Shown: positions 28,618 through 53,741 of the stretch, piece after piece
Layout: every line of letters begins with the position of its first letter
Numbering within the stretch: the stretch's first letter is position 1
Source: Pseudomonadota bacterium
GTDB taxonomy: Bacteria > Pseudomonadota > Alphaproteobacteria > Acetobacterales > Acetobacteraceae
Reading direction: 5' to 3'
Length of the DNA: 64,000 nt
Assembly: GCA_021809435.1 (NCBI GenBank)
Contig: JAKBAD010000006.1
Span: 62,001-126,000 of the forward strand
The notes under the pieces: model-generated
The model's database searches: none
Told to the model about the DNA's origin: nothing
The model's input: the letters and a program-made list of their open reading frames with translations, nothing else
Program-made: the position numbers and the translations under genes

Positions 28618-30615
28618 ATGAGCGTCACCATCACGCGCGAGCGCGGGGTTGGCGTCATCACGCTGGCCAACCCGCCGGTCAATGCCCTCAACACCCCGTT
28701 GCGCGCGGCCCTGCTGGCGGCGGTGCGTGAGCTGGAAGCCGATGCCGGCGTGCGCGCGCTGGTTATTTGGGGCGGGGCAGGGTGCTTTGTCGCCGGTGCC
28801 GATATCGGTGAGATGAGCCGTCCGCCCGAGGCGCCGTTTCTTCCCGAACTCACCGCCGCGCTCGAGGGTTGCGCCAAGCCCGTGGTGGCGGCGCTGGGCG
28901 GCGCGACGCTGGGGGGCGGCTGCGAACTCGCCCTGGCGTGCGACCTGCGCTTAGCCTCCCCCGGCGCGCTCATCGGCCTCACCGAGACCCGCCTCGGCCT
29001 GATCCCAGGCGCTGGCGGCACGCAGCGCCTGACGCGCCTGGTGGGCGAGGCCAAGGCGATCGAGATGATCTGTGCTGGTCAGGTGCTTACCGCCGCCGAG
29101 GCCCAGGCGATCGGGCTGATCGATGATCTCATCGCCACCGACCTCCTCGCCGCCGCCATCGCACGCGCGCCCAATACGCCCAAGCGCCGTGTCTCCGCCC
29201 TCACGCCGCCACCCTCGGTGTCTGGCCCCGCCATTGTCGCGGCGCTCAAGCGCGCGCGGGGCGTGCCCGCCATCGCCGAGGCCATTCGCGTCATCGGCGC
29301 CGCCCACGGGCCCTTCGCGCACGGTCTGGCCCTGGAGCGCGAGGCCTTTCTGCGCCTGCGCGCCAGCCCCGAGGCCGCTGCGCTGCGCCATCTCTTCTTC
29401 GCCGAGCGCGAGGCCGCCAAGGTGCCTGGGCTAGCGGGTATCAAATCCCGGGCGGTGACGCGGGCGGCGGTCATTGGCGCGGGTACCATGGGCGCGGGCA
29501 TTGCCGCGGCTCTGCTTGCCGCGGGCCTGCCGGTCACGCTCATCGAGCGCGACGAAGCCGCCGCCCAGGCGGGCGCCGCGCGCGTCTCCGCCTTGCTGCG
29601 CGCACCCGGTGCCGCCCTCGCCGCCACCGCCGACTGGTCCGGCCTCGCGCAAGCCGACCTCATTATCGAGGCGGCTTTCGAGGATCTGGCCGTGAAGCGA
29701 GATATTTTTCATCGGCTCGATACGGTAGCCAAACCCGGCGCGGTGCTGGCCACCAACACCTCTTATCTCGACCTCGCCGCCATTGCTGGCGCCACCTCAC
29801 GCCCGGCCGATGTGCTGGGTCTGCATTTTTTCGCCCCCGCCCATATCATGAAGCTGCTCGAGCTGGTGCGCCTGCCCATCACCGCCCCCGATGTGCTGGC
29901 CACCGGCTTGGCGCTGGCCAAGCGGCTTGGCAAGCAGCCGGTGGTGGCGGGTAATGCCGAAGGCTTCATCGGTAACCGCGTTTATGCGGCCTATCGCCGC
30001 CATGCCGAATATCTTCTGGCCGATGGCGCCCTGCCCGCGCAGGTGGATGAAGCGCTCGAATCTTATGGTTTCGCCATGGGTGTTTTCGCCGTCTCAGACA
30101 TTTCCGGCCTCGACATCGCCCACGCCCTGCGCCGTCAGCGCGATGCCACACGCGACCCCGCCGAGCGCTATGTCACCATCCCCGATCAACTGGTCGCGCT
30201 TGGCCGCCTGGGGCGCAAAACCAGCGCTGGCTGGTATCGCTACACCCCCGATGGCCAGCGCCACCCGGACCCCGAGGTGGCCGATCTCATCGCCAAATCC
30301 CGCTCTGGCCCGGCCCAAGGCTTCACAGCCCAGGCCATCTGGCGCCGCTTGCTTGCCATCATGGCCAACGAGGGCGCCAGGCTGCTGGCCGAGGGCATTG
30401 CTCTGCGCGCCAGCGACCTCGATGTCGCGTTCGTCAATGGCTATGGCTTTCCCCGCGCCAAGGGTGGCCCCATGTGGGCAGCCGACGCGCTCGGTTTGCC
30501 AGCCCTGCTGGCGGAATTGCAGGCCGCCCACGAGCCGCCCGCGCCGCTGCTCATCACCCTTGCCAACAACAAAAAGCGCCTGAGTGCCTGGCGCCAGGAC
30601 GGAGACACCCCATGA
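28618..30615 (+). CDS. Fused enoyl-CoA hydratase / 3-hydroxyacyl-CoA dehydrogenase (FadB/FadJ-like; PaaF+PaaH equivalent)
   Basis: N-terminal crotonase fold (GGAGCFVAGADIGEM, LGLIPGAGGTQRL) then AVIGAGTMGAGIAAALLAAGLPVTLIERD and 3HCDH C-terminal domains. Confidence 0.9.
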   Translation: MSVTITRERGVGVITLANPPVNALNTPLRAALLAAVRELEADAGVRALVIWGGAGCFVAGADIGEMSRPPEAPFLPELTAALEGCAKPVVAALGGATLGGGCELALACDLRLASPGALIGLTETRLGLIPGAGGTQRLTRLVGEAKAIEMICAGQVLTAAEAQAIGLIDDLIATDLLAAAIARAPNTPKRRVSALTPPPSVSGPAIVAALKRARGVPAIAEAIRVIGAAHGPFAHGLALEREAFLRLRASPEAAALRHLFFAEREAAKVPGLAGIKSRAVTRAAVIGAGTMGAGIAAALLAAGLPVTLIERDEAAAQAGAARVSALLRAPGAALAATADWSGLAQADLIIEAAFEDLAVKRDIFHRLDTVAKPGAVLATNTSYLDLAAIAGATSRPADVLGLHFFAPAHIMKLLELVRLPITAPDVLATGLALAKRLGKQPVVAGNAEGFIGNRVYAAYRRHAEYLLADGALPAQVDEALESYGFAMGVFAVSDISGLDIAHALRRQRDATRDPAERYVTIPDQLVALGRLGRKTSAGWYRYTPDGQRHPDPEVADLIAKSRSGPAQGFTAQAIWRRLLAIMANEGARLLAEGIALRASDLDVAFVNGYGFPRAKGGPMWAADALGLPALLAELQAAHEPPAPLLITLANNKKRLSAWRQDGDTP

Positions 30616-32633
30616 CCGCCATCCTCAACTCCTATGCCCTCGATGCCTGGTTTACCCCCAGCCAAGGCTTGACTACCATCCCCAGCGCCATAGATGGCCG
30701 CCCGGTGGCTCAAACCTCCACCCAGGGGCTCGATTTCGCCGCCATGGTCGCCCATGCCCGCGCCATTGGCGGCGCCAATCTGCGCGCGCTCACCTTCCAT
30801 CAGCGCGCCGAGCGGCTCAAAGCCCTGGCCGTCCATCTCTCCGCCCATAAGGACGAGCTTTATGCCCTGTCCTTTGATACCGGCGCCACCAAGCGCGACC
30901 ATTTCATCGATATCGACGGCGGCATCGGCACGCTCTACGCCTATGCCTCGCGCGGGCGCAAAGAGTTGCCCGCCGAGCGTTTCGTGGTCGAGGGGGCGAC
31001 GGAGCCGCTCTCCAAAACGGGCAACTTCATTGGGCTGCATGTGCTCACCCCCCTCCAAGGTGTGGCGGTGCACATCAACGCCTTCAATTTCCCCTGCTGG
31101 GGCATGCTGGAAAAACTCGCGCCTGCCATTCTGGCCGGCGTGCCGGTCATCACCAAGCCCGCCACCGCCACCTCTTATGTCGCCGAGCGCGTGGTGCGTC
31201 TCATCATTCAATCGGGTATTCTGCCGCCAGGGGCGCTGCAATTCATCTGTGGCGGGGTGGGGGATTTGCTCAGCCACCTCACCGGCCAGGATGTGCTCTC
31301 CTTCACCGGCTCGGCCGCGACCTCGCGGGCGCTGCGCGACCATCCCACCGTGTCGCGCAATGCGGTCCGTTTCATCGCCGAGCGGGACTCCCTCAACGCC
31401 GCCGTGCTGGCTCCCGATGCCGTGCCCGGCACCCCGGAATTCGATTTGTTCATCAAAGAGGTCACCCGCGAGATGACCGTGAAAGCTGGCCAGAAATGTA
31501 CCGCCATCCGCCGCATCATCGTACCCCGCGCGCTCGAGGCTGACATCACCGCCGCCCTGTCGGCGCAGCTCGCCAAATTCATCCCCGCCGATCCGCGCGC
31601 CGAAGATACCCGCATGGGCCCGCTGGCGAGCGTCGCCCAGCGCCAATCCGTCCAGGAGGCGCTCGCCGCGCTCACACGCGAGGCGGAGATTGTGTTCGGC
31701 GACCCCGCCAAAGCCCATGGCGCCTACATGCCACCCGTGCTGTTGCGCTGCGCCCACCCGCTCACCGCCACCGCCCCGCATGAGGTCGAGGCTTTTGGCC
31801 CCGTCGCCACCCTCATGGTCTATGACACGCTGGCGGATGCCCTCGCCCTGGTCGCCAAGGGCGAGGGGAGTCTCGTTGCCTCGGTCTACACCTACGATCC
31901 CGCTTACGCCGACACGCTGCTTTTCGGCATTGCCGCCTATCACGGCCGCGTGCTGCTGCTTGACCGTGATTGCGCCAAAGACTCCACCGGCCATGGCTCG
32001 CCGCTGCCCGGTCTCATTCATGGCGGGCCGGGCAGGGCGGGGGGGGGCGAGGAAATGGGTGGCCTGCGCGGTGTGTTCCACTACATGCAGCGTGCCGCCC
32101 TGCAGGGGTCGCCCGCGCGGCTCGCAAGCCTCACGCGCACCTGGCTGCCCGGCGCCCCCGCGCCCGTCACGCCAGAGCACCCGTTCCGCCGTGATTACGA
32201 CCATCTGCATGTGGGGGAGACGGTGCTCACCAAGCCGCGCACCATCACGCTCGACGACATTGAGCATTTTGCCCATTTCACCGGCGATGAGTTCTACGCC
32301 CACATGGATGAACAGGCGGCCGCCGCCAATCCGTTCTTTCCTGGGCGCGTGGCGCATGGCTATTTGCTGCTCTCCTTCGCTGCGGGGTTGTTCGTCGATC
32401 CCGCGCCCGGCCCGCTGCTGGCCAATTACGGGCTCGATCATCTGCGTTTCCTCAAGCCCGTTTCGCCGGGTGATTCCATCCGCGTGCGGCTCACGGTCAA
32501 GCGCAAATCCCCCGCCCGCCAGCCCGAATATGGAGAGGTACGCTGGGATGTCGAGCTGTTCAATCAGCATGAGGAAACTGTCGCCCGCTACGAACTGCTG
32601 ACCATGAGCGCCCGTGCGCGCCATGCTGGATAA
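30612..32633 (+). CDS. paaZ: Bifunctional oxepin-CoA hydrolase / aldehyde dehydrogenase
   Basis: ALDH domain (GQKCTAIRRIIVPR) plus MaoC-like C-terminus (FARFTGDEFYAHMDE-like: FAHFTGDEFYAHMDEQAAAANPFFPGRVAHGYLLLS); start ATG 30612. Confidence 0.96.
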   Translation: MTAILNSYALDAWFTPSQGLTTIPSAIDGRPVAQTSTQGLDFAAMVAHARAIGGANLRALTFHQRAERLKALAVHLSAHKDELYALSFDTGATKRDHFIDIDGGIGTLYAYASRGRKELPAERFVVEGATEPLSKTGNFIGLHVLTPLQGVAVHINAFNFPCWGMLEKLAPAILAGVPVITKPATATSYVAERVVRLIIQSGILPPGALQFICGGVGDLLSHLTGQDVLSFTGSAATSRALRDHPTVSRNAVRFIAERDSLNAAVLAPDAVPGTPEFDLFIKEVTREMTVKAGQKCTAIRRIIVPRALEADITAALSAQLAKFIPADPRAEDTRMGPLASVAQRQSVQEALAALTREAEIVFGDPAKAHGAYMPPVLLRCAHPLTATAPHEVEAFGPVATLMVYDTLADALALVAKGEGSLVASVYTYDPAYADTLLFGIAAYHGRVLLLDRDCAKDSTGHGSPLPGLIHGGPGRAGGGEEMGGLRGVFHYMQRAALQGSPARLASLTRTWLPGAPAPVTPEHPFRRDYDHLHVGETVLTKPRTITLDDIEHFAHFTGDEFYAHMDEQAAAANPFFPGRVAHGYLLLSFAAGLFVDPAPGPLLANYGLDHLRFLKPVSPGDSIRVRLTVKRKSPARQPEYGEVRWDVELFNQHEETVARYELLTMSARARHAG

Positions 32634-32796
32634 TTCGCGGCGAAACCGGTGAGCGCGGGCAAGTATCTGGCGCGTGCTCATCATAACTAACGGTTATACT
32701 GTCCTTGACCGCCCGTGCATTGCCGCGCATGCCGCCCCGCCCCTACTCTGGCCACACATGCCCAACAAAAATCCGCATGAATCCAGAGGAGTGTTC

Positions 32797-34011
32797 ATGA
32801 CCACCAGCGATCTCAACATCGCCATCATTGGCGCCGGCATTGGCGGCCTTACCTTGGCGCTCGCCCTGCGCCGCCATGGCATAGGCGTCACGCTCTATGA
32901 GCAAACCGCCGAGCTGCGCGAGGTCGGCGCCGCCGTGGCGCTCTCGGCCAACGCCACCCGCTTCTACGACCGTATTGGCCTGCGCCCCGCGTTCGATGCC
33001 GTCTGCGCCAATATTTCCACCCTCATCTACCGTGATGGCCGCACGGGCGCTGAAATCGGCCGTCAAAGCGGCACACCCAGCTATGAGCATCAGTTCGGTG
33101 CCTGCTACTGGGGCATCCACCGCGCGCATTTGCAAGCCATCCTTTCCCAGGCCGTGGGCATGGCTCATATCCGCCTCAGCAAGCGCCTGTCGGGCCTGCA
33201 GGATCAGGGGCGCGAGGTGGTGCTCACCTTCGAAGACGGCGACAGTGCCAAGGCCGATCTGGTGATCGGCGCGGATGGGGCGCGCTCGCTCGTCCGCCGC
33301 TATTTGCTGGGCTATGATGACGCGCTCTATTCCGGCTGTTCCGGCTTTCGCGGCATCGTCGCGCCCGAGGCGCTCAAATTATTGCCCGACCGCGAGGCCA
33401 TCCAGTTCTGGATGGGGCCGTCGGGCCATTTGCTGCATTACCCCATTGGCAATGGCGACCAGAATTTCCTGCTCGTCGAGCGCCAGCCCTCGCCCTGGCC
33501 GGTGCGCGAGTGGGTCATGCCCGCCACGCCGGGCGAGCAGCTCCGCCATTTCGCCAACTGGCATCCAGCGGTCGTTGAAATGATCAGCGCCGTACCAACC
33601 AGCCAGCGCTGGGGCCTGTTCCACCGCCCGCCCTTGGGCCGTTGGACGCGCGGGCGCATCACCCTGCTGGGCGATGCCGCCCATGCCCTGGTGCCTCATC
33701 ATGGGCAGGGGGCCAACCAATCCATCGAAGACGCGGTGGTGCTGGCTGAGAGTCTGGCCAGCCATGGCACGGGGCAATGGGCTGCCGCGCTTGAACATTA
33801 TGAACACCAGCGCCGGGGGCGTACCCGCAAGGTGCAATATGCCTCCATCTCCACCGCCGATATGCTCCACCTGCCAGACGGCCCCGCCGCCACCGCCCGC
33901 AACGTCCGCTTCGCCAGCCACGAGCACATGCTCCACCATCTCGGTTGGATCCATGAGTTCGACCCCGCCACAGATACCCCCACCGAACGCCAGGGCGGCA
34001 CCTGGCTCTAA
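32797..34011 (+). CDS. FAD-dependent aromatic monooxygenase (salicylate/3-hydroxybenzoate 6-hydroxylase-like)
   Basis: IAIIGAGIGGLTLALALRRHGIGVTLYEQ, ITLLGDAAHALVPHHGQGANQSIEDAV. Confidence 0.88.
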   Translation: MTTSDLNIAIIGAGIGGLTLALALRRHGIGVTLYEQTAELREVGAAVALSANATRFYDRIGLRPAFDAVCANISTLIYRDGRTGAEIGRQSGTPSYEHQFGACYWGIHRAHLQAILSQAVGMAHIRLSKRLSGLQDQGREVVLTFEDGDSAKADLVIGADGARSLVRRYLLGYDDALYSGCSGFRGIVAPEALKLLPDREAIQFWMGPSGHLLHYPIGNGDQNFLLVERQPSPWPVREWVMPATPGEQLRHFANWHPAVVEMISAVPTSQRWGLFHRPPLGRWTRGRITLLGDAAHALVPHHGQGANQSIEDAVVLAESLASHGTGQWAAALEHYEHQRRGRTRKVQYASISTADMLHLPDGPAATARNVRFASHEHMLHHLGWIHEFDPATDTPTERQGGTWL

Positions 34012-34119: not shown

Positions 34120-34506
34120 TTACTGCACGGCGCCGTTCACGGTCAGGGTGGAGGCGCCATCCATCGCGCCTGAGTTGGCCGCCGGCGCAGGCTTCATCTC
34201 GTCCCACAAAATCACGCTGCCGGCGGGCGTAAGTCCGCCACCTATGTCGGGCCCGTGCAGTGCCCCGCCCTTGATTTGTGACATGTCGCCATCGGGCAAC
34301 GGCACCAGCGTCAGCGCCGCCACCTCGTCAACAGACGCCGGCCGCGGCCAAGCGGGCCGCGCCAGGGACAGGCACAACACCAGCCCGATCAGCCCCGGGA
34401 GCGCTAAAATATGGGCCATATCGCGCACCGGCGCCTCGATCGCCGATAGCCGCCGCCGCCAGGCGGGTTTTGGTCTATGCGGCGTTAAAAAATGCGGTCC
34501 CATCAT
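34120..34506 (-). CDS. Small exported/anchored protein with double-glycine motif DMSQIKGG (P4)
   Basis: Hydrophobic segment HILALPGLIGLVLCLSLARPAW then LVPLPDGDMSQIKGGALHG; C-terminus STLTVNGAVQ; 1-nt abutment with upstream ORF; start uncertain. Confidence 0.6.
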   Translation of the reverse strand: MMGPHFLTPHRPKPAWRRRLSAIEAPVRDMAHILALPGLIGLVLCLSLARPAWPRPASVDEVAALTLVPLPDGDMSQIKGGALHGPDIGGGLTPAGSVILWDEMKPAPAANSGAMDGASTLTVNGAVQ

Positions 34507-35057
34507 CAGAAAATACCATTTCCGTAGGTTATGCCGGTTTGCAGAACCGATAATGACCGTGCCTGGGTTAACATCTGGCTCATTCCCGTCACGCCAACGG
34601 TCATGGTCGTGGCAAGGCCGATCAGCGCGTTGTTCGCCTGGTTGGTCACCAGATTCTGGACCCCGGCGCCCAGCACGGTGCTGATAACGGTTTGCCCGCC
34701 ATTGCTGATGCTCGAGAAGGTCACGCTGCTTCCCGCCGGAGGGGTATAGGTGGTGGTGCCGCCGGCATCGCTTACCGTTACCGGCAGGGCGGCGCCGGTG
34801 AGAAAGGTGGTTGGCACCAGAATGCTCTGCACCACAATGCCGTTCACGGTGTCGATCTGCTGAAACCCAAACGAGATCGACAAGGCTGGGGAGATGTCAA
34901 AGCCACCTCTGATGGTCCCAAGATCGCCGGTGGCGATGACGGCGTTGGCCAACCCCAGAGCGGCCACGCTCGGTGGCGGTTCGGCTCTGGCGGGTGCCGC
35001 CATGAGAGGGGCGAGCAACAGGGGCGCCAGCCCCATTCGGTACAAAAAATCGGTCAT
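34506..35057 (-). CDS. Small secreted protein with double-glycine motif DLGTIRGG (P3)
   Basis: Signal peptide MGLAPLLLAPLMAAPARA, then GDLGTIRGGFDISPALSISFGFQQIDTVNG; G/T/V/N-rich C-terminus. Confidence 0.7.
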   Translation of the reverse strand: MTDFLYRMGLAPLLLAPLMAAPARAEPPPSVAALGLANAVIATGDLGTIRGGFDISPALSISFGFQQIDTVNGIVVQSILVPTTFLTGAALPVTVSDAGGTTTYTPPAGSSVTFSSISNGGQTVISTVLGAGVQNLVTNQANNALIGLATTMTVGVTGMSQMLTQARSLSVLQTGITYGNGIF

Positions 35058-35079
35058 GTCACCAAACTCCGGTTGGTGG

Positions 35080-35778
35080 TCAAAACAGATTGGGGTTGGC
35101 CACGTTCACCTGCTCCAGGCTGGCCAGAGTGAGTGTGAACCGGCCCAGATCGAGCGGTGAGTCAGGTTGGCCCGCCCAATCCTGCCCGTTATTGAACCCC
35201 GCCCTGGCCGTGGGCAGATCGGAGAGGATGATGAAAAATATCCCCGTCCATTGACGGTTGAAGGCTTCGGCCTCGACACTGCGCAGACCGAGCGCCGGGT
35301 CGGCCAGCAGCACCTCGCCGTCGCGGATGCCCCGCAAAACCACGAAATGCTTGAACCCCCGCTCATTGATCAGCACGATCGCCGGCACCCTGACTTCGGC
35401 CACTTTTGTCAGCGGGGCACGAAACCCGCCCGAGGGGATGCCGTGGCGCGTGAGATAATTTTTCATATCCAGCAGCGAAAAGCCCGCTTGCTGAATGGCG
35501 CTCTGGTCGCCGTTCAGGAACATATCGGTGAATACCGAACTCTCCGTTTCTGGAATATGATAGGTAAACAGAAGCAAGGTGGCGAGCGCGGCCGATCCGC
35601 ACGAGAAATCATATTTCTGCTGGATGGTGGTGGCGAATTTTCGTGCCTCGAAGCTTTGCACTTTAATCGTTGCCGCGCCACCATCGGTGGAGAGTGGGGT
35701 AAACGCAACCTGACCAGCCGTGGCGGCCATGGGCATGCTTGTCGCCAGCCCCGTAATGAATAGCCGCCTGGTTGTCAT
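35080..35778 (-). CDS. Stand-alone exported C39 family peptidase (FapD-like)
   Basis: Signal peptide; QQKYDFSCGSAALATLL (Cys), FKHFVVLRG (His), LLADPALG (Asp); no ABC transporter domain. Confidence 0.88.
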   Translation of the reverse strand: MTTRRLFITGLATSMPMAATAGQVAFTPLSTDGGAATIKVQSFEARKFATTIQQKYDFSCGSAALATLLLFTYHIPETESSVFTDMFLNGDQSAIQQAGFSLLDMKNYLTRHGIPSGGFRAPLTKVAEVRVPAIVLINERGFKHFVVLRGIRDGEVLLADPALGLRSVEAEAFNRQWTGIFFIILSDLPTARAGFNNGQDWAGQPDSPLDLGRFTLTLASLEQVNVANPNLF

Positions 35779-35797
35779 TTGCCGGTCTCCTGGTATT

Positions 35798-36145
35798 TCA
35801 TTGAACGGCGATATTGATCGTCATGCTGCTTTGCAGTAGCGCGTTATTGCCGGTATTTTGCAGCACCGTGGTCAGGCCGGTATTATTATTCACCGACTGA
35901 TTGTTGGAAATTCCGCCGGTCACCGAGTTGTTGGCGCTGTTGCCGGTATCGATGCCGATATTCACAGAGGAAGCCACGAACGTTCCACCGCGCATGGCCG
36001 AGAGTTGGGCGGCGTTGACCGCCGAGCCGCCAAGGCTGGCCAGCGGATCGTTGCTTGTGTCTCCAGCCCCCGCGGCGCGCACGGGCCCCGCCACCAGAAC
36101 CGCCGCCAAGCTCACGGCGGCAATACTATAAAATTTTATAGTCAT
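35798..36145 (-). CDS. Small secreted Asn/Ser/Thr-rich protein with double-glycine motif QLSAMRGG (P2)
   Basis: Signal peptide FYSIAAVSLAAVLVAGPVRAAGA; NNNTGLTTVLQNTGNNALLQSSMTINIAVQ C-terminus. Confidence 0.7.
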   Translation of the reverse strand: MTIKFYSIAAVSLAAVLVAGPVRAAGAGDTSNDPLASLGGSAVNAAQLSAMRGGTFVASSVNIGIDTGNSANNSVTGGISNNQSVNNNTGLTTVLQNTGNNALLQSSMTINIAVQ

Positions 36146-36240
36146 TGGCATCTCCCGCATCGAATCAGGGGTGTCTTGCCAAGCGGTCACCGCATGGCGC
36201 GGGTGGCGCCATGCGGTTTCCGGTTTGGCGGTGCCGCTGC

Positions 36241-36804
36241 TCAGAAGCTGCCAAATCCCGTGCCGCCGCTGACATAAGAGCCAAGCGCCACAGAGTTTTG
36301 CTGCAACGAGGCGAGGCCGGTGCTCTGCTCAACGGTGCTGATGCCGGTGCTGCTGTTATTGGCATAGCTCATATTGGCGTTGCCGCTATTGATCGAACCA
36401 CCACCAGCGCCGCCCGGCCCCCAGGGATGGCTGTCGCCACCGCTGCTGCCCACCGAGAAGGTCATCTTGCCAACCGCGCCGCTATTGCCGGAATTGGCGA
36501 GCGTAATGGTCTGGTGGGTGTCGGTCTTGGTGAAGGCGAGCGACGTGTTGCCAACGTCGGTCAGGGTCTTCGTGATGTCGGTCGTGGTCGATGAGCTCAA
36601 TGTGTTGCCATTGGCATTGAGCGAGGTGCCGCCCGTGGTGGCGGCGCTGCTTTCGCCGTTACTCAAGGCGTTTTGTACCGGCGAGGCCACGGAAGAGGTC
36701 GATGGCCCGCCGCCGTTGCCCTGCCCGCCAGGCCCGCCATCCGCGAGCGCCGCGCCGCCGAGGAACAGGAACGCCGCACAGCTGGAAAGAAAGATATTAC
36801 GCAT
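36241..36804 (-). CDS. Secreted Gly/Ser/Thr/Asn-rich candidate amyloid-like protein (P1)
   Basis: Signal peptide MRNIFLSSCAAFLFLGGAALA; low-complexity GSTN-rich; NNSSTGISTVEQSTGLASLQQNS similar to P2 C-terminus. Confidence 0.68.
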   Translation of the reverse strand: MRNIFLSSCAAFLFLGGAALADGGPGGQGNGGGPSTSSVASPVQNALSNGESSAATTGGTSLNANGNTLSSSTTTDITKTLTDVGNTSLAFTKTDTHQTITLANSGNSGAVGKMTFSVGSSGGDSHPWGPGGAGGGSINSGNANMSYANNSSTGISTVEQSTGLASLQQNSVALGSYVSGGTGFGSF

Positions 36805-36901
36805 GATGATACCTCCGATAAATATGTTGACCTGTCTTAGTCTTGGAATTCTTGGATCCCGAATGACGGCTGATGGGCCAGCCAGTCACGCTGGGGTCAG
36901 A

Positions 36902-36916
36902 GCAAACGCCGTGCCA
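36902..36916 (-). promoter_or_regulatory. Sigma54 -24/-12 promoter TGGCACGGCGTTTGC
   Basis: Exact consensus on minus strand, about 100 bp upstream of P1 start. Confidence 0.85.
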
Positions 36917-36969
36917 AAACCAGGAAAAATCAAATTTACTAAATTATATCATGCATTTTTCAAGTGCTA

Positions 36970-36984
36970 TTCACGTAGCGTGAA
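36970..36984. promoter_or_regulatory. Inverted repeat TTCACG-TAG-CGTGAA
   Basis: 6-bp perfect arms in the divergent promoter region. Confidence 0.4.
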
Positions 36985-37028
36985 AAGCTTGATGGTGAGG
37001 TATATTTCGTAACGCGCGTCACCATATG

Positions 37029-37045
37029 CTGTAACAGTGTTACAG
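37029..37045. promoter_or_regulatory. Inverted repeat CTGTAACA-G-TGTTACAG (operator/UAS candidate)
   Basis: 8-bp perfect arms with 1-nt centre. Confidence 0.5.
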
Positions 37046-37070
37046 GTTTACAACATAAATCGGTTCTGTA

Positions 37071-37086
37071 AGGGAATTTATTTGCA
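37071..37086 (+). promoter_or_regulatory. Weak sigma54-like element AGGGAATTTATTTGCA
   Basis: GG-N10-GC spacing and TTTGCA -12, but poor -24 flank. Confidence 0.3.
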
Positions 37087-37130
37087 AATATCAGCAAAAT
37101 ATGGATGATGCGAAAAAAAAGGAGCGCGTC

Positions 37131-38552
37131 ATGTCGAAAATGCCCTTTATTTCTTCATGTAATAAAAATCATAAAATTAATATGAAGCGTGAATTGCGGT
37201 GTTTTAATGATTCCGCGAATGCCGATTATCTTTCATCGGCCAACTTATTTGGTAACAAACAAATTATCCCACGTGTGGCATGGCTGGCCTTGGCTGTGGT
37301 GGGGCTCGGCGCCGCGCCTGCTTATGCCGATTCCGATTCCGCAAGCCTCGACCGTCTCAAGGCCTCGGTCGCCGCGCAGCAAGCCAAGCTCCAGCAGGAG
37401 GAGTTGCAACTCGAGCAGCAATCGCTGGAACTCGACCAGCAGCAATCCCTGCTCGATCATGAAATGGCCACTCTGCGTGGCGCGGGCGACACAGATGAAA
37501 AGCGCGCCGTACAATCCAAGCCTGTCCCCGAGGTGCAGTCCGTAGGCGCCGAGCAGCAGCAGCAGCAGCAGCAGGAGCAGGAGCGCCAAACCACCGTGAT
37601 TTTGCAATCCTCCACGGCCTTGTCGGGCACCAGCGGCGTGCTCACACCCAAAGGGCAGCTCGTTGTAGATCCGGCAGTTGAGTATGATTACTGGACCCAG
37701 AATCAGCTCAACCTCAATGGCTTCACCATCATTCCCGGCATCACGCTGGGTAATATCTACATATCGCGCGTTGATCAGCATTATCTCATGCCCAGCCTCA
37801 CCGCCCGCTATGGCCTCACCGACCGGCTGGAGCTCAACATCAAACTGCCCTTCGTGGCCGGCTTTGGCTCGACCACCGCCCAGCAGGCCGGGCCCTCGGC
37901 ACAGCCACTCACCACCAGCCCCACGGCCGCCTATATCGGCGATGTGCAGCTTGGCGCGGCTTACCAGTTCAATAGCGGCGCCAATGGCTGGCCTGTGCTG
38001 GTGGGTAATCTCACGTTCAAAACCGCTACCGGCCGCAGCCCTTACGATGTCCCCATCTATACCGCCCAGAACCAGAGCAACGCCCTGCTCGATGGCTTGC
38101 CCAAGCAGCTGCCCACCGGCACCGGGTTCTACGCGCTTGAACCCAGCCTTTCTGTATTCTACCCCACAGCCCCTGGGGTCATTTTTGGCAATATTCAATA
38201 TATTTATAATTTCAGCCGCTCCTTCACGATCGCCAATCCTGGCGGTGGGCCTGGCAGCAAGGATCGGCTGGCGCCTGGCATGGCGATCGCGGCAACTTTT
38301 GGCCTGGGCTTTGCCCTTAACGACAAAACCTCCATGACGCTGAGCTACCAGGAGGAACATGTCTTCGGTGCCTCCGTCAACGGCCAGTCGCTGGCGGGTT
38401 CGGCCTATGATTTTGGCACCCTCAATTTCGGCCTTGGCTACCAGCTATCTCCGCGCACCAACCTCAATTTGGGGGTTGGTATCGGTGTTGGCCCCTACGC
38501 TCCGGCCGCTAAAATCCTCATCGAAATTCCCATCCGGTTCGACGCGCTCTGA
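37131..38552 (+). CDS. Outer-membrane beta-barrel protein with N-terminal coiled coil (FapF-like / MetA-pathway transporter type)
   Basis: Long N-terminal extension before signal peptide RVAWLALAVVGLGAAPAYA; coiled coil RLKASVAAQQAKLQQEELQLEQQSLELDQQQSLLDHEMATL; polyQ linker; repeated amphipathic beta strands. Confidence 0.75.
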   Translation: MSKMPFISSCNKNHKINMKRELRCFNDSANADYLSSANLFGNKQIIPRVAWLALAVVGLGAAPAYADSDSASLDRLKASVAAQQAKLQQEELQLEQQSLELDQQQSLLDHEMATLRGAGDTDEKRAVQSKPVPEVQSVGAEQQQQQQQEQERQTTVILQSSTALSGTSGVLTPKGQLVVDPAVEYDYWTQNQLNLNGFTIIPGITLGNIYISRVDQHYLMPSLTARYGLTDRLELNIKLPFVAGFGSTTAQQAGPSAQPLTTSPTAAYIGDVQLGAAYQFNSGANGWPVLVGNLTFKTATGRSPYDVPIYTAQNQSNALLDGLPKQLPTGTGFYALEPSLSVFYPTAPGVIFGNIQYIYNFSRSFTIANPGGGPGSKDRLAPGMAIAATFGLGFALNDKTSMTLSYQEEHVFGASVNGQSLAGSAYDFGTLNFGLGYQLSPRTNLNLGVGIGVGPYAPAAKILIEIPIRFDAL

Positions 38553-38630
38553 GGCCGCGGCCAAAAATCCTTGGCGCCGGGCGGTGGGCGCGTTAGGCTG
38601 GGCAAAAACCAGCCGGGGAAACGATCTGCC

Positions 38631-40337
38631 ATGCCATCCGCGCCAGAGCGGGCCATGACCCTTATCGCCGAGGCCACCGACGACCGCGTGCTCGCCGGCC
38701 ATCTGCATTTTTCGCCTGATACCGGTCATATTCAACTCTTTGATCAGCGCATGCTGCTCATGCACGGTTTCTCCGTCGCCGCCTTGCGCCACGAGCTTGT
38801 CGAGCGTCTGGGCCAGGACAAGGCCCGCGAAATCTTCACCCGGCTGGGCTACCAGCAAGGCACGGCCGATGCCCAGCGCTTGCGCGCCCATGAGGGTGAC
38901 GATCTTTCGCGCATCCTCGCCCTTGGTCCACGCCTGCGCGAAATCGAAGGCTTCGTGCGCAACCAGGCCATCGACCGCATCCAGTTCAATTCCCGTACCG
39001 GCGAATTCTGGGGGGATTATTACTGGCAAGCCTCGTGGGAGGCCGAAGCCCACCTCGCGCAATTCGGCCTGAGCGGCGAGCCCGCCTGCTGGATGATGGT
39101 GGGCTACGCCAGCGGCTTCACCACCGCGCTCATGGGCCGGCCCATCTTGTGGCGCGAGACCGAATGCGTTGCCATGGGCCATACACGCTGCCGCGTGGTC
39201 GGCCGCCCGCTCGAGGAGTGGGACGATGCCGCCGATGATCTGCGTTTTCTCCAGATCGAGGATTTCGTCGCCGCGCCGCGCCCCGTGCGCGTGCGCGCCT
39301 CCATTCCGCCCGCGCCCCCACCCCCGCCCGGCATGCTCCCGGACCTCGCCGGGGCGTCGGCGCCCTTCAATGCCGTGGTGCATAAAATCAAGCGTGTCGC
39401 CGCCACCGGCGCCACGGTGCTGTTTCTGGGCGAGAGCGGCGTCGGCAAGGAGCGTTTTACGAAAACTTTGCATGCCATCAGCCCGCGTGCCGCTGGTCCG
39501 CTGGTGTCGCTCAACTGTGCGGCCATTCCCGCCGAGCTGGTCGAGGCTGAGTTGTTCGGTGTCGAAAAAGGTGCCTTCACCGGTGCCACCGTGGCGCGCG
39601 CCGGCAAGTTCGAGCGCGCCGAGGGCGGCACGATCTTTCTCGATGAAATCACCAGCCTGCCGCTCTCCGCTCAAGGTAAGCTGTTGCGCGTGCTGCAAGA
39701 GCGCGAGATCGAGCGTGTGGGGGGCACTGAAACCCGCCGCGTGGATGTGCGCGTGGTCGCCGCCGCCAACCGTGATTTGCGCGCCGAGGTGGCCGCCGGG
39801 CGCTTTCGCGAGGATTTGTTTTTTCGCCTTAATGTTTTTCCCGTGGAAATTCCCCCGCTGCGCCAGCGTCGCGAGGATATTCCCCTGTTGGTTAATGTTT
39901 TCGTCAAGCGCTTCACCGAGCGCATGGGCAAACCCATCGCTGGCCTTACCCAGCGCGCCTCCGAGGCATTATGGACCTACGATTGGCCCGGTAATGTCCG
40001 CGAGTTGGAAAACATCATAGAGCGGGCCGTGATCCTGGCCGATGAAGGCGGCGTCCTGGATGTTTTTCATCTGTTCTCGGGTGGCGAGGCCCTGGCGCCG
40101 CGCGCGCTGCACCTCTCGGCCAGCGGCCATCTCGACACAGCCCCGCCTCAGCGCCCCGATGATAGCATCGCCCAGTTGCTTGAGAAATCGGGCAGCCTCG
40201 AAAATCTCGAGACCCAATTGCTCGATTACGCCCTCAAGCAAAGCAATGGTAATATCTCCGCCGCCGCCCGTCTGCTCAAGCTCCGCCGTGGGCAGCTTGA
40301 ATACCGTCTGAAAAAAGCCCGCGGCGGGGCGGGATAA
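38631..40337 (+). CDS. XylR/DmpR-type sigma54 activator (XylR_N + V4R + AAA+ + Fis HTH)
   Basis: V4R-like region [80 protein letters not shown]. Confidence 0.9.
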
Positions 40338-40344
40338 AGAAAGA

Positions 40345-40374
40345 CGTGGGGAATTTTTGAAAAAATTCCCCACG
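40345..40374. terminator. Perfect 14-bp inverted repeat, bidirectional terminator between convergent genes
   Basis: CGTGGGGAATTTTT-GA-AAAAATTCCCCACG. Confidence 0.8.
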
Positions 40375-40391
40375 CCCCTAAAAACTTTTAA

Positions 40392-41441
40392 TCAATTGGC
40401 TTGCGCGTCGATCATCTCGCGTAGCCGCCGGCGCACTTTCACGGGGGCAATGTCGTTGCTCATCAGAACGGGTGACATCGAGAAAAATTCCCGCCCCGCC
40501 ATTTCGCTCTCAACCGCCTCGAGCAACGGCAGGTCTTCATTGGCGAACGCCCCATGCATTGCCTCGATCTTCATCTGATTGAAGGCTCCATCCTCAACCA
40601 AATGATTGCGCCGGGTGGCAAACCAATAATGCGTCGTCGTTTCGGTCTCGGGGGTTACGGTGTGTAAGTCATACTGCCCCACCGTCGCGTCGAGTTCGAG
40701 CGGACCATTGCCCTGTGTCGCGCCAATGGTCAGTTGAATATTAGCCGGTGCCGCCCAGTTTACTTGTACAAACATCCGCGCTTCATCATCGGGTTTAGGC
40801 AGAAACTGGTTGAAGATCAGCATACCCGGCGTCTGTTTCCACTCCCAGCGCGCCGATATCACCCCGGCCTCGTCGCGCACCTCTGGAATCAGCGGCGTCA
40901 GCTGTCCGCGCGTCGAGATGATCTCTGAATGCAGATGATCGACATGGCTCAAATCCATGACATTGTCTATGATCAGCTCATAATTGGCCTTGGTGTGCAT
41001 ATAGGTGAAGGCCAGCGCGTTTTCATGCCCGACATCGAGCGGTGAATAATCAGGCAGCTTCGTTGGATCGGCCGGTTGGTCTCCAAACCAGATCCATACA
41101 AATCCGTAACGCTCCAGCAGCGTATAGGCGGTGACGTTGGCGGCTTTCGGAATGGCTTTGTTGCCATGCGGATTATGCGTGCACGCCCCCTGATGGTTGA
41201 ATTTCAGCCCATGATAGGGGCACACCACCTCATCGCCCTCGCGCTTGCCCAAATGCAGCGGCACAAACCGGTGCGGGCAGCGGTCCTGAATCGCCACAGC
41301 TTCGCCATCCCGCGTGCGATAGAGCAGCACCGAACGGTTGAGCAGCTTGCGCGCCAGCATGTCGGTCGCGTTCAGCTCGCGTGAAAGCGCCGCCGCGTAC
41401 CAGGCATTTTCAAGAAACACGCCGGGGGATTTTTGCAACAT
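40392..41441 (-). CDS. Rieske aromatic oxygenase, vanillate O-demethylase oxygenase (VanA)-like
   Basis: Rieske CPHRFVPLHLGKREGDEVVCPYHG; NVMDLSHVDHLH iron ligands. Confidence 0.88.
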   Translation of the reverse strand: MLQKSPGVFLENAWYAAALSRELNATDMLARKLLNRSVLLYRTRDGEAVAIQDRCPHRFVPLHLGKREGDEVVCPYHGLKFNHQGACTHNPHGNKAIPKAANVTAYTLLERYGFVWIWFGDQPADPTKLPDYSPLDVGHENALAFTYMHTKANYELIIDNVMDLSHVDHLHSEIISTRGQLTPLIPEVRDEAGVISARWEWKQTPGMLIFNQFLPKPDDEARMFVQVNWAAPANIQLTIGATQGNGPLELDATVGQYDLHTVTPETETTTHYWFATRRNHLVEDGAFNQMKIEAMHGAFANEDLPLLEAVESEMAGREFFSMSPVLMSNDIAPVKVRRRLREMIDAQAN

Positions 41442-41516
41442 TCTTGAACTCCTCAGTTTGTTTTGCATGGCGCTGGTCAATGTCGCGCCGGCCGCGCCTT
41501 AAGCCGGCGCGAGGTC

Positions 41517-42449
41517 TCACAAATCCAGCACCAGCTCCGCGCTTCGCGCGCGTGAGACACATGGCAGAAAACAATTTCCTCGCGCCTGTTCGGTGCGGGT
41601 TAAAAAATTGTCGCGGTGCTCGGGCTCGCCAGCCAGCACCGTGGTGCGGCACGTGCCGCAAATGCCCTGTTCGCACGAAACCGGCAGTTCAACGCCCGCC
41701 GCCAGCAGCGCCGCCAGCGCGCTTTGGTTAGCTGCCACCTCCACCAGCGTGCCACGCCGCGCCAGCCGCAGCGTGAACCCGCCGCCAGTCATGGCCTGGG
41801 GCGCAAAAGATTCCGCGTGCAGCCGCGCCTCATCCCAGCCCACCGCCCGCGCGCTCTCGAACACATGGGCAATAAATCCGGCCGGTCCGCACACATAAGC
41901 CTCCGTGCCCGGCGCGGCGGTGGCCAGCACGGCCTTGGCATCCAAGCGTTGCGCGGGTGCCTCATCATCCACATGCAGCGCCACCCGCTCGCCCCAGGGC
42001 AGCGTATCGGCAAAGGCCGCAGCGGCGCGGTTGCGCGCGCAATAATGCAGCATAAAGGCGCGCCCCTCGCGGTGCAGCGTGTGAGCCATGGCCAGCAGCG
42101 GCGTTATACCAATGCCGCCGGCAAACAGCAGTGCCCCGCCAGTGGGGCGCAGCGCGAACAAATTGCGCGGCGCTCCAATGCGTAGCGCCATGCCTGCGCT
42201 AATATCATCATGCACACAAACCGAGCCGCCCCGGCTGCCAGGGTCACGCAAAACCGCGATCACGTAGCGCTCACGCTCTTGCGGGTCGTTGAGCAGCGAA
42301 TATTGGCGCACCATGCCGTTGGGCAGTGCCACATCAATATGCGCCCCGGCTTCAAAAGGCGGCAGCAGTGCGCCGTCTTCGGCCGTCAGCTCCAGCGCGA
42401 CAATCCGCTCCGCCACCATCTCGCGTTTGGTCACCAGCATTTTTAGCAC
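41517..42449 (-). CDS. Oxygenase reductase (VanB-like), FNR + C-terminal 2Fe-2S
   Basis: RQYSLLNDP, CVHDDI, GGIGITPLLAMAHTL, SCEQGICGTCRTTVLAG. Confidence 0.9.
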   Translation of the reverse strand: MLKMLVTKREMVAERIVALELTAEDGALLPPFEAGAHIDVALPNGMVRQYSLLNDPQERERYVIAVLRDPGSRGGSVCVHDDISAGMALRIGAPRNLFALRPTGGALLFAGGIGITPLLAMAHTLHREGRAFMLHYCARNRAAAAFADTLPWGERVALHVDDEAPAQRLDAKAVLATAAPGTEAYVCGPAGFIAHVFESARAVGWDEARLHAESFAPQAMTGGGFTLRLARRGTLVEVAANQSALAALLAAGVELPVSCEQGICGTCRTTVLAGEPEHRDNFLTRTEQARGNCFLPCVSRARSAELVLDL

Positions 42450-52889: not shown

Positions 52890-53741
52890 TCAGCCAAACC
52901 GCCGCAACCGCGTCCAGGCGCGTATGGCGGTCAGCGCGGGCAGTTGCAGTCCCGCCCCCCCGCGCAGGCTTGCCACCGCTTCGTCCGAGAACACCACCTC
53001 GCGCACCACCTCGTCCAACTGGTCCGGATCTCTGCTCAACCGTGTCAGCCGTGTCTGCATGCCATCCTCGTCCGCCCGCCGGCGCAGCACGTGTACATAA
53101 AGCAGGCCAATTGCCGTTGCCGCGTCATATTGCCGCGCGACCAGTTCCAGGGCCTCACTTAGCTCCTGGGCAAAAGTCTCAAGCTCGGCTGGCGTTGCCG
53201 CCCGCCTGGTGCCAATCACCGCCGCCACCAGGTTGGCCGCTTTCACCTCTTCGCCTGGCTCGGCCCGCCGTGGCGGGCGCGAGGGCAGGGTGATCTCCAG
53301 CTGCCCCAAAATCGCCTCACCGGCTTCGCCCAGCACGCGCACGGCCAGCTTGTGGCGCCCGCCATCAAAAAACCGCCCCGGGATTGCCAGATGAAACCCG
53401 TAATGCCCATCGCCGTAATTCACCGCCACCAAGTCACCGCGAAAGCGCAGCGCGGTATCGGTGGCAATCACCGTGTCGCCGGCCATCAATCCCACGGTCA
53501 GCCGCCGCTCGGGCCGTGCGGGCACTCTTACCCAGCCCACCACATTCCAACGGGGGTCCAGCCCATCGACATACCCCTCCCAAACCGGTTTGGCCGGCTC
53601 ATCACGGGCGAGTCGCACAGGCGGGTTCTCGGGCCGTGCCACGGCCTGACCGCTCCGTGGCTTAAATGCCGCGAGCACCTTGCTTTCGCTCCATTCCGCC
53701 CGACCGCCGTCTATTTTTCTGAGGTTGGACAATTTCGCCAT
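52890..53741 (-). CDS. DUF4214-like domain protein
   Basis: GLLYVHVLRRRADEDGMQTRLTRLSRDPDQLDEVVREVVFSDEAV resembles DUF4214 C-terminus. Confidence 0.6.
   Translation of the reverse strand: MAKLSNLRKIDGGRAEWSESKVLAAFKPRSGQAVARPENPPVRLARDEPAKPVWEGYVDGLDPRWNVVGWVRVPARPERRLTVGLMAGDTVIATDTALRFRGDLVAVNYGDGHYGFHLAIPGRFFDGGRHKLAVRVLGEAGEAILGQLEITLPSRPPRRAEPGEEVKAANLVAAVIGTRRAATPAELETFAQELSEALELVARQYDAATAIGLLYVHVLRRRADEDGMQTRLTRLSRDPDQLDEVVREVVFSDEAVASLRGGAGLQLPALTAIRAWTRLRRFG

Follow-up and report, generated by a model that had tools for sequence, protein, structure and literature searches.

The 64,000-nucleotide stretch analysed here (hereafter the window; contig JAKBAD010000006.1, positions 62,001 to 126,000) belongs to an Acidocella genome of 2.65 Mb. 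Between positions 34120 and 38552 it carries a gene cluster that is likely to secrete fibres in the manner of Fap and to represent a large branch sister to the canonical systems, with a FapD-type peptidase that would cut the leaders of its substrates. The open reading frames (ORFs) called over the window place P1, P2, a C39 peptidase, P4 and P5, in this order, in a minus-strand operon whose last two genes overlap by TGATG; the gene for a β-barrel protein is divergent from P1. Signal peptides are evident by eye in P1, P2, P4, the C39 protein and the barrel, while P5 has one only when read from the internal Met of MAHILALPG. P2 probably starts at the internal Met preceding TIKFYS. The genes are as follows:

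34120 to 34506, minus strand: P5, a small protein that differs from FapA and has an ILWDE motif as well as a double-glycine (GG) leader
34506 to 35057, minus strand: P4, a FapE-like exported protein with a signal peptide, a GG leader and one Fap-like repeat
35080 to 35778, minus strand: a FapD-like exported C39 cysteine peptidase with catalytic residues Q54, C60, H144 and D160
35798 to 36190, minus strand: P2, an exported protein of 130 amino acids with a signal peptide, a GG leader and one Fap-like repeat (GLTTVLQNTGNNALLQ)
36241 to 36804, minus strand: P1, an exported protein of 187 amino acids rich in N, S and G, the probable main secreted subunit, with one Fap-like repeat near the C-terminus (GISTVEQSTGLASLQQNSVALG) and no leader
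37101 to 38552, plus strand: a FapF-like outer-membrane pore with a signal region, a coiled coil (residues 80-127), a linker, a plug helix (150-170) and a β-barrel (186-481); its start codon is uncertain

The locus is not a chance assembly, since the same genes in the same order are found in the other Acidocella genomes that carry it. A pore gene was detected in 15 of 38 Acidocella genomes, a protease gene in 12 and a P4 gene in 11. The three are jointly present or absent, the sole exceptions being loci cut at contig ends, which is the situation in the four genomes that have the pore without P4.

Sequence, fold and layout all identify the barrel as a FapF homologue. A sequence search aligned it with the FapF structure PDB 5o67 (E 1.4e-28) and the NCBIfam FapF model matched with an E-value of 4.6e-45, while its AlphaFold model contains a long helix of 48 residues (80-127), a disordered linker, a second, plug-like helix (150-170) and the barrel, which is the FapF architecture. 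One could nevertheless take the protein for an aromatic-compound uptake channel (COG4313 or Phenol_MetA_deg) tied to nearby aromatic catabolism, the C39 block being unrelated to it, as its match to PF13557 (E 1.1e-5) and the neighbouring genes for a probable ring-hydroxylating oxygenase and an XylR-type regulator might suggest. We consider this extremely improbable: the top 18 Foldseek matches of the pore model are all FapF, with a COG4313 channel far behind (1e-22 vs 2.5e-12), the coiled coil and plug helix are present, and the barrel and the C39 block remain together in other genomes where the genes on either side are different.

Its presumed partner, the C39 protein, matches PF03412 (E 2.8e-18) and the NCBIfam FapD model (E 7.8e-44), and the four catalytic residues are invariant among its 123 relatives; judged by these matches it is a FapD homologue, predicted to be exported and to have an intact active site. 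It contains the only C39 domain found in the genome. Both proteins fall outside the Pseudomonas equivalog because they score below the NCBIfam cut-offs (149.6 bits against 330 for FapD, 154 against 700 for FapF); when the models were checked on locus L110, all six genes matched the correct Fap model, five of them above cut-off (FapC reached 164 of 195 bits). The N-terminus of the C39 protein, MTTRRLFITG (35710-35778, minus strand), resembles a Tat signal, a feature that is not obviously common to the relatives within the genus. A preliminary description of this DNA had recognized one minus-strand operon for four small exported proteins and a stand-alone exported C39 peptidase with intact motifs, together with a divergent β-barrel protein with an N-terminal coiled coil, and had proposed a distant Fap-like secretion system of divergent layout. 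All of this is upheld, the proposal agreeing with sequence, profile, fold and gene neighbourhood: the barrel aligns best with FapF and not only with generic porins, and the neighbours are kept together in other genomes.

P4 is, on profile comparison, a divergent FapE homologue. A profile built from Acidocella proteins only matched one built from canonical FapE only (hhalign 91.6%, E 8e-7, 125 columns), and a broader P4 set reached 95.5%. P4 itself has no match in NCBIfam; 32 of its relatives gave no Pfam match and a single NCBIfam match, a weak one to an unrelated model. Profile searches over the whole genome with the P4 family found only P4 and, weakly, P2. The structure model of P4 is of modest confidence (predicted template-modelling score 0.52) and P4 has no counterpart in the PDB, either by fold or by sequence. 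The broad P2 family aligns in hhalign with the P4 family (98%), FapE (91.9%) and FapB (85.6%), and by this measure P2 is a paralogue of P4 with a FapB-like repeat. Profiles of P1 and P2 restricted to Acidocella showed no clear link to FapB or FapC in hhalign. The Fap-like repeat of P1 is visible by eye only, and an iterative hidden Markov model search groups P1 with P2, which is a grouping that repeats can produce. P5 was rejected as a FapA candidate (hhalign 0.4%); a P5-like gene and FapA are both present in loci L121 and L124, and a few canonical operons have a relative of P5 upstream of fapA. Loci without FapA are a common variant that has already been described (PMC6173800). Beside FapD/FapF loci of other Alphaproteobacteria we noted proteins of 2635 and 838 amino acids with many QNNG repeats (L065 10004-17911; L061 5299-7815), which may be the main fibre subunits of those loci.

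A feature that probably connects the small proteins with the protease lies directly after the signal peptides of P4, P2 and P5, where each carries a double-glycine leader with key positions at −12, −8, −7 and −4 and glycines at −2 and −1. The C39 leader consensus of bacteriocin precursors has hydrophobic residues at −12, −7 and −4, an acidic residue at −8, G at −2 and G or A at −1. P4 and P5 fit this consensus, P2 fits except for a Q at −8, and a copy in the pore is weak. The following positions were assigned, mostly with a position-specific scoring matrix (PSSM):

34264 to 34302, minus strand: C39-type leader of P5, PLPDGDMSQIKGG (PSSM score 12.1, p 0.002)
34902 to 34940, minus strand: C39-type leader of P4, VIATGDLGTIRGG (leader alignment and PSSM)
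35984 to 36022, minus strand: C39-type leader of P2, AVNAAQLSAMRGG (PSSM)
37446 to 37484, plus strand: weaker leader-like motif in the pore, SLLDHEMATLRGA, at the end of the coiled coil (PSSM p 0.011-0.014)

An alignment of 32 diverse relatives, most of them 15-27% identical to P4, contains only four invariant residues, three of which are the RGG of the leader. The leader is present in 127 of the 129 FapE-like neighbours of FapD relatives and absent from two, in a set collected by an iterated profile that spans the leader region; Pseudomonas FapE, in the form RGR or RGK, is included. Across the 127 leaders, L or M occupies −7 and G occupies −2 in every case, R is found at −3 in 125, and position −1 is G in 109, R in 12 and K in 6; −12 and −4 are mostly hydrophobic and −8 is often E.

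A PSSM trained on FapE-type leaders outside Acidocella was then run on the window proteins, with p-values from shuffles that preserve composition only. It recovered the leaders of P2 (20.7, p 0.001), P4 (10.6, p 0.002) and P5 (9.1, p 0.006), gave a weak score at the pore N-terminus (6.4, p 0.014) and found no scoring leader in P1 or the protease. Since 10 of 17 canonical FapD proteins, used as controls, also pass at p<0.05 (one reaches a score of 8), we relied on p<0.01. At this threshold the leader occurs in 77 of 100 P2-like proteins of the sister clade and in 29 of 97 pore N-terminal regions, at the same place as in the window pore (residues 116-128, exactly at the end of the coiled-coil helix); among 106 proteases and 43 P1-like proteins of this clade it was detected in one and none, respectively. 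Canonical FapE carries it in 17/17 cases, canonical FapB in 0/12 and the canonical pore in 1/17. Outside the locus three ORFs of the window reach a score of 8, two of them antisense to real genes and the third at 52890-53741. A first enrichment test on crude ORFs (strict motif in 26/425 near FapD and 1/228 far from it) was superseded by the PSSM test.

The conserved leader thus probably marks what the periplasmic FapD-type protease cuts, as far as can be judged from sequence. In accordance, FapC secretion in Pseudomonas depends on the active-site Cys of FapD, a periplasmic protein, and the Fap protein that loses its N-terminus is FapE while FapB and FapC stay whole (PMC5557850); this published processing agrees with the leader pattern in the case of FapE and FapB. 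The pattern does not account for the processing of Pseudomonas FapF, the linker of which may be processed according to the same study (PMC5557850). The leader might instead stay uncut and serve to dock the proteins on, or target them to, the protease or the pore, with the C39 enzyme acting as a chaperone or cutting something else. Some C39-like domains merely bind their substrate (PMC6173800), and the RGR/RGK form of canonical FapE departs from the standard C39 P1 residue at the cleavage site. We regard such a role as unlikely in view of the full catalytic set kept in 123/123 FapD relatives, the requirement for the catalytic Cys and the disappearance of the FapE N-terminus in Pseudomonas (PMC5557850), and the fit of the motif to a C39 leader at exact spacing, GG included. 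C39 enzymes and GG leaders are also classic bacteriocin parts, and the enzyme could trim the leaders of toxin or signal peptides released through the barrel. There is, however, no ABC (ATP-binding cassette) transporter in the locus, the substrates carry Sec signals, the only C39 domain of the genome is the locus protein, P2 and P4 group with FapE/FapB and share N/Q repeats, and the pore is FapF-like, all of which makes secretion of bacteriocin-like peptides very unlikely.

The leader also bears on what the preliminary description had said about the small proteins. It had noticed the GG residues without recognizing a C39 leader common to canonical FapE. Its statement that none of them is obviously a FapA, FapB, FapC or FapE homologue needs correcting, because P4 is by profile a FapE homologue and P2 is FapB/FapE-like; the idea of different substrates is accordingly right only in part, P1 and P5 having no direct link to FapB/FapC or FapA, respectively.

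Leader-like stretches were seen in a few further proteins. In a more distant group, where FapD and FapF genes form adjacent pairs, the small protein beside them is unrelated and shows a similar motif (LSDTQMDSVVGG, MTDAEMDGVVGG; L072 9580-10095, L074 71-448, L075 2544-2885, L076). Canonical FapA (L110-L120; e.g. L116 7666-8142), which has been reported as unprocessed, contains a degenerate stretch, ELSDSDFAGVTSG, that reads GDADFARVSGG in L116. The likely Acinetobacter FilA (L229 4658-5527) has MDDAALSAATGQDG directly after its signal peptide, with a weak score.

Sets of FapD, FapF and a FapE-like protein are found across Proteobacteria and also outside them, for the most part in a clade apart from canonical Fap. 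Of 139 loci with a FapD relative, 128 have a FapF relative nearby and 129 a FapE-like gene, the latter lying downstream of FapD on the same strand in 121/123 loci. A scan of 84,980 species yielded at least 582 relatives, and the 80 that were retained include Lysobacter, Cupriavidus, Massilia, Sphingomonas, Geotalea and Nitrospira. In a FapD tree (n=123) the 17 canonical Fap proteins form one fully supported group; the window FapD is not inside it and belongs to a sister clade (branch support 100/100). Both locus types can occur in one genome, as in G159 (L077, L063), G397 (L121, L132) and G348 (L120, L130). On balance we favour the view that Fap has a large sister branch, hitherto undescribed, in Proteobacteria and beyond, and that in this branch and in Fap itself a periplasmic bacteriocin-type protease acts on double-glycine leaders behind Sec signals, which would fix the substrates and cutting sites of the FapD family. 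Pairs of fapD and fapF were already known from five further phyla in a 2018 review, and what is new beyond these pairs is the FapE-like partner and the leader.

The systems now called Fap would then make up a single clade among a much wider range of FapD/FapE/FapF loci, and many genes without a family name beside a 'C39 family peptidase' would therefore gain a testable function; on a Polymorphobacter plasmid, for example, the FapE-like and barrel neighbours of such a peptidase are annotated as 'hypothetical protein'. The FapD substrate has been reported as undetermined and Fap proteins are said to be without canonical C39 sites (PMC5557850, PMC6173800), while a 2025 review states that FapD is 'thought to' process FapE and FapF (PMC12822426). 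A search outside of which most subscription journals and all preprints lay found no literature linking FapD-type enzymes to a double-glycine leader beyond a GG/GA suggestion (PMC5557850). The occurrence of the leader in nearly all FapE-like neighbours, Pseudomonas FapE included, names the probable FapD site to the residue and makes it testable by mutagenesis.

We infer the following course of events. P1, P2, P4 and P5 would cross the inner membrane via Sec, after which the periplasmic FapD-type peptidase would recognize the leader beside the signal peptide of P2, P4 and P5 and cleave behind GG, with the pore as a further possible target where its coiled coil ends. The two minor subunits, FapE-like P4 and FapB/E-like P2, would then pass in processed form through the trimeric FapF-like pore, to initiate or anchor a fibre of uncut P1 on the cell surface, presumably amyloid in nature, with sigma-54 driving expression of the locus.

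Several observations weigh against this interpretation. The loci were picked by FapD or FapF similarity, with ORFs called crudely and without gene models. Profile comparison in hhalign gave P1 no link to FapC. In the window the motif of the pore is weak, and most pores do not have it; canonical FapE has R or K at the cleavage-site P1 residue, which classical C39 enzymes do not favour. All 17 canonical FapD partners have R or K at this residue and the other 106 have G, except in L198. This match between protease clade and leader residue is in effect one evolutionary event with one exception, and co-variation of the two was therefore rejected as independent evidence. For members of the sister branch we found no data on cleavage, secretion or fibres.

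As to regulation, two elements lie between the divergent genes:

36901 to 36916, minus strand: sigma-54 promoter sequence TGGCACG-N4-TTGC upstream of P1 (11/11 consensus)
37030 to 37044, no strand assigned: inverted repeat TGTAACAGTGTTACA, a possible activator site farther upstream than the promoter, with similar repeats in some relatives only

The promoter sequence is located 97 bases upstream of P1. At least 10 of the 11 consensus positions are present in 13/14 Acidocella intergenic regions, and 42/1400 shuffles reach 9. A sigma-54 activator gene is found beyond P5 in eight other Acidocella loci; coordinates noted for such a gene next to the locus in other genomes of the genus are G000:C5:31027-31968 (L230), L047 2186-3286 and L052 3069-4145. 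Its closest match in the source genome is 57% identical and on another contig. The locus of the window is flanked by genes of probable aromatic-compound catabolism (30474-34011 and 38571-42449), among which an XylR/V4R-type sigma-54 regulator directly follows the pore gene.

The organization closest to that of the Acidocella locus is Pseudomonas Fap (FapABCDEF; FapF structures 5o65/5o67/5o68), with which it shares an exported FapD-type C39 peptidase, a FapF-type coiled-coil/plug/barrel pore, a predicted FapE homologue with the leader directly after the signal peptide, and N/Q-rich exported subunits. It contrasts with Pseudomonas Fap in having no FapA and no recognizable FapC, in the leader of P2 where canonical FapB has none, in the G instead of R/K at the leader P1 residue, in a pore gene that is divergent instead of last in the operon, and in scores that do not reach the NCBIfam cut-offs. 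To Acinetobacter Fil the locus is linked by its peptidase, related to FilB (E 2.5e-33), and its barrel, related to FilC (E 4.8e-24; both NCBIfam), but the FapD and FapF models outscore those of FilB and FilC, and the FilA-like neighbour in Acinetobacter has only a weak leader-like stretch. With the C39 domains of bacteriocin and microcin ABC exporters (e.g. 6mpz, 4ry2) the locus protein shares the protease family and the leader spacing; unlike them it is stand-alone and predicted to be periplasmic, with the leader placed behind a Sec signal peptide. Finally, the COG4313 outer-membrane channels (4rl8), for which no C39 partner has been reported (PMC6173800), have a related barrel fold, although the similarity of our pore to them is lower than to FapF.

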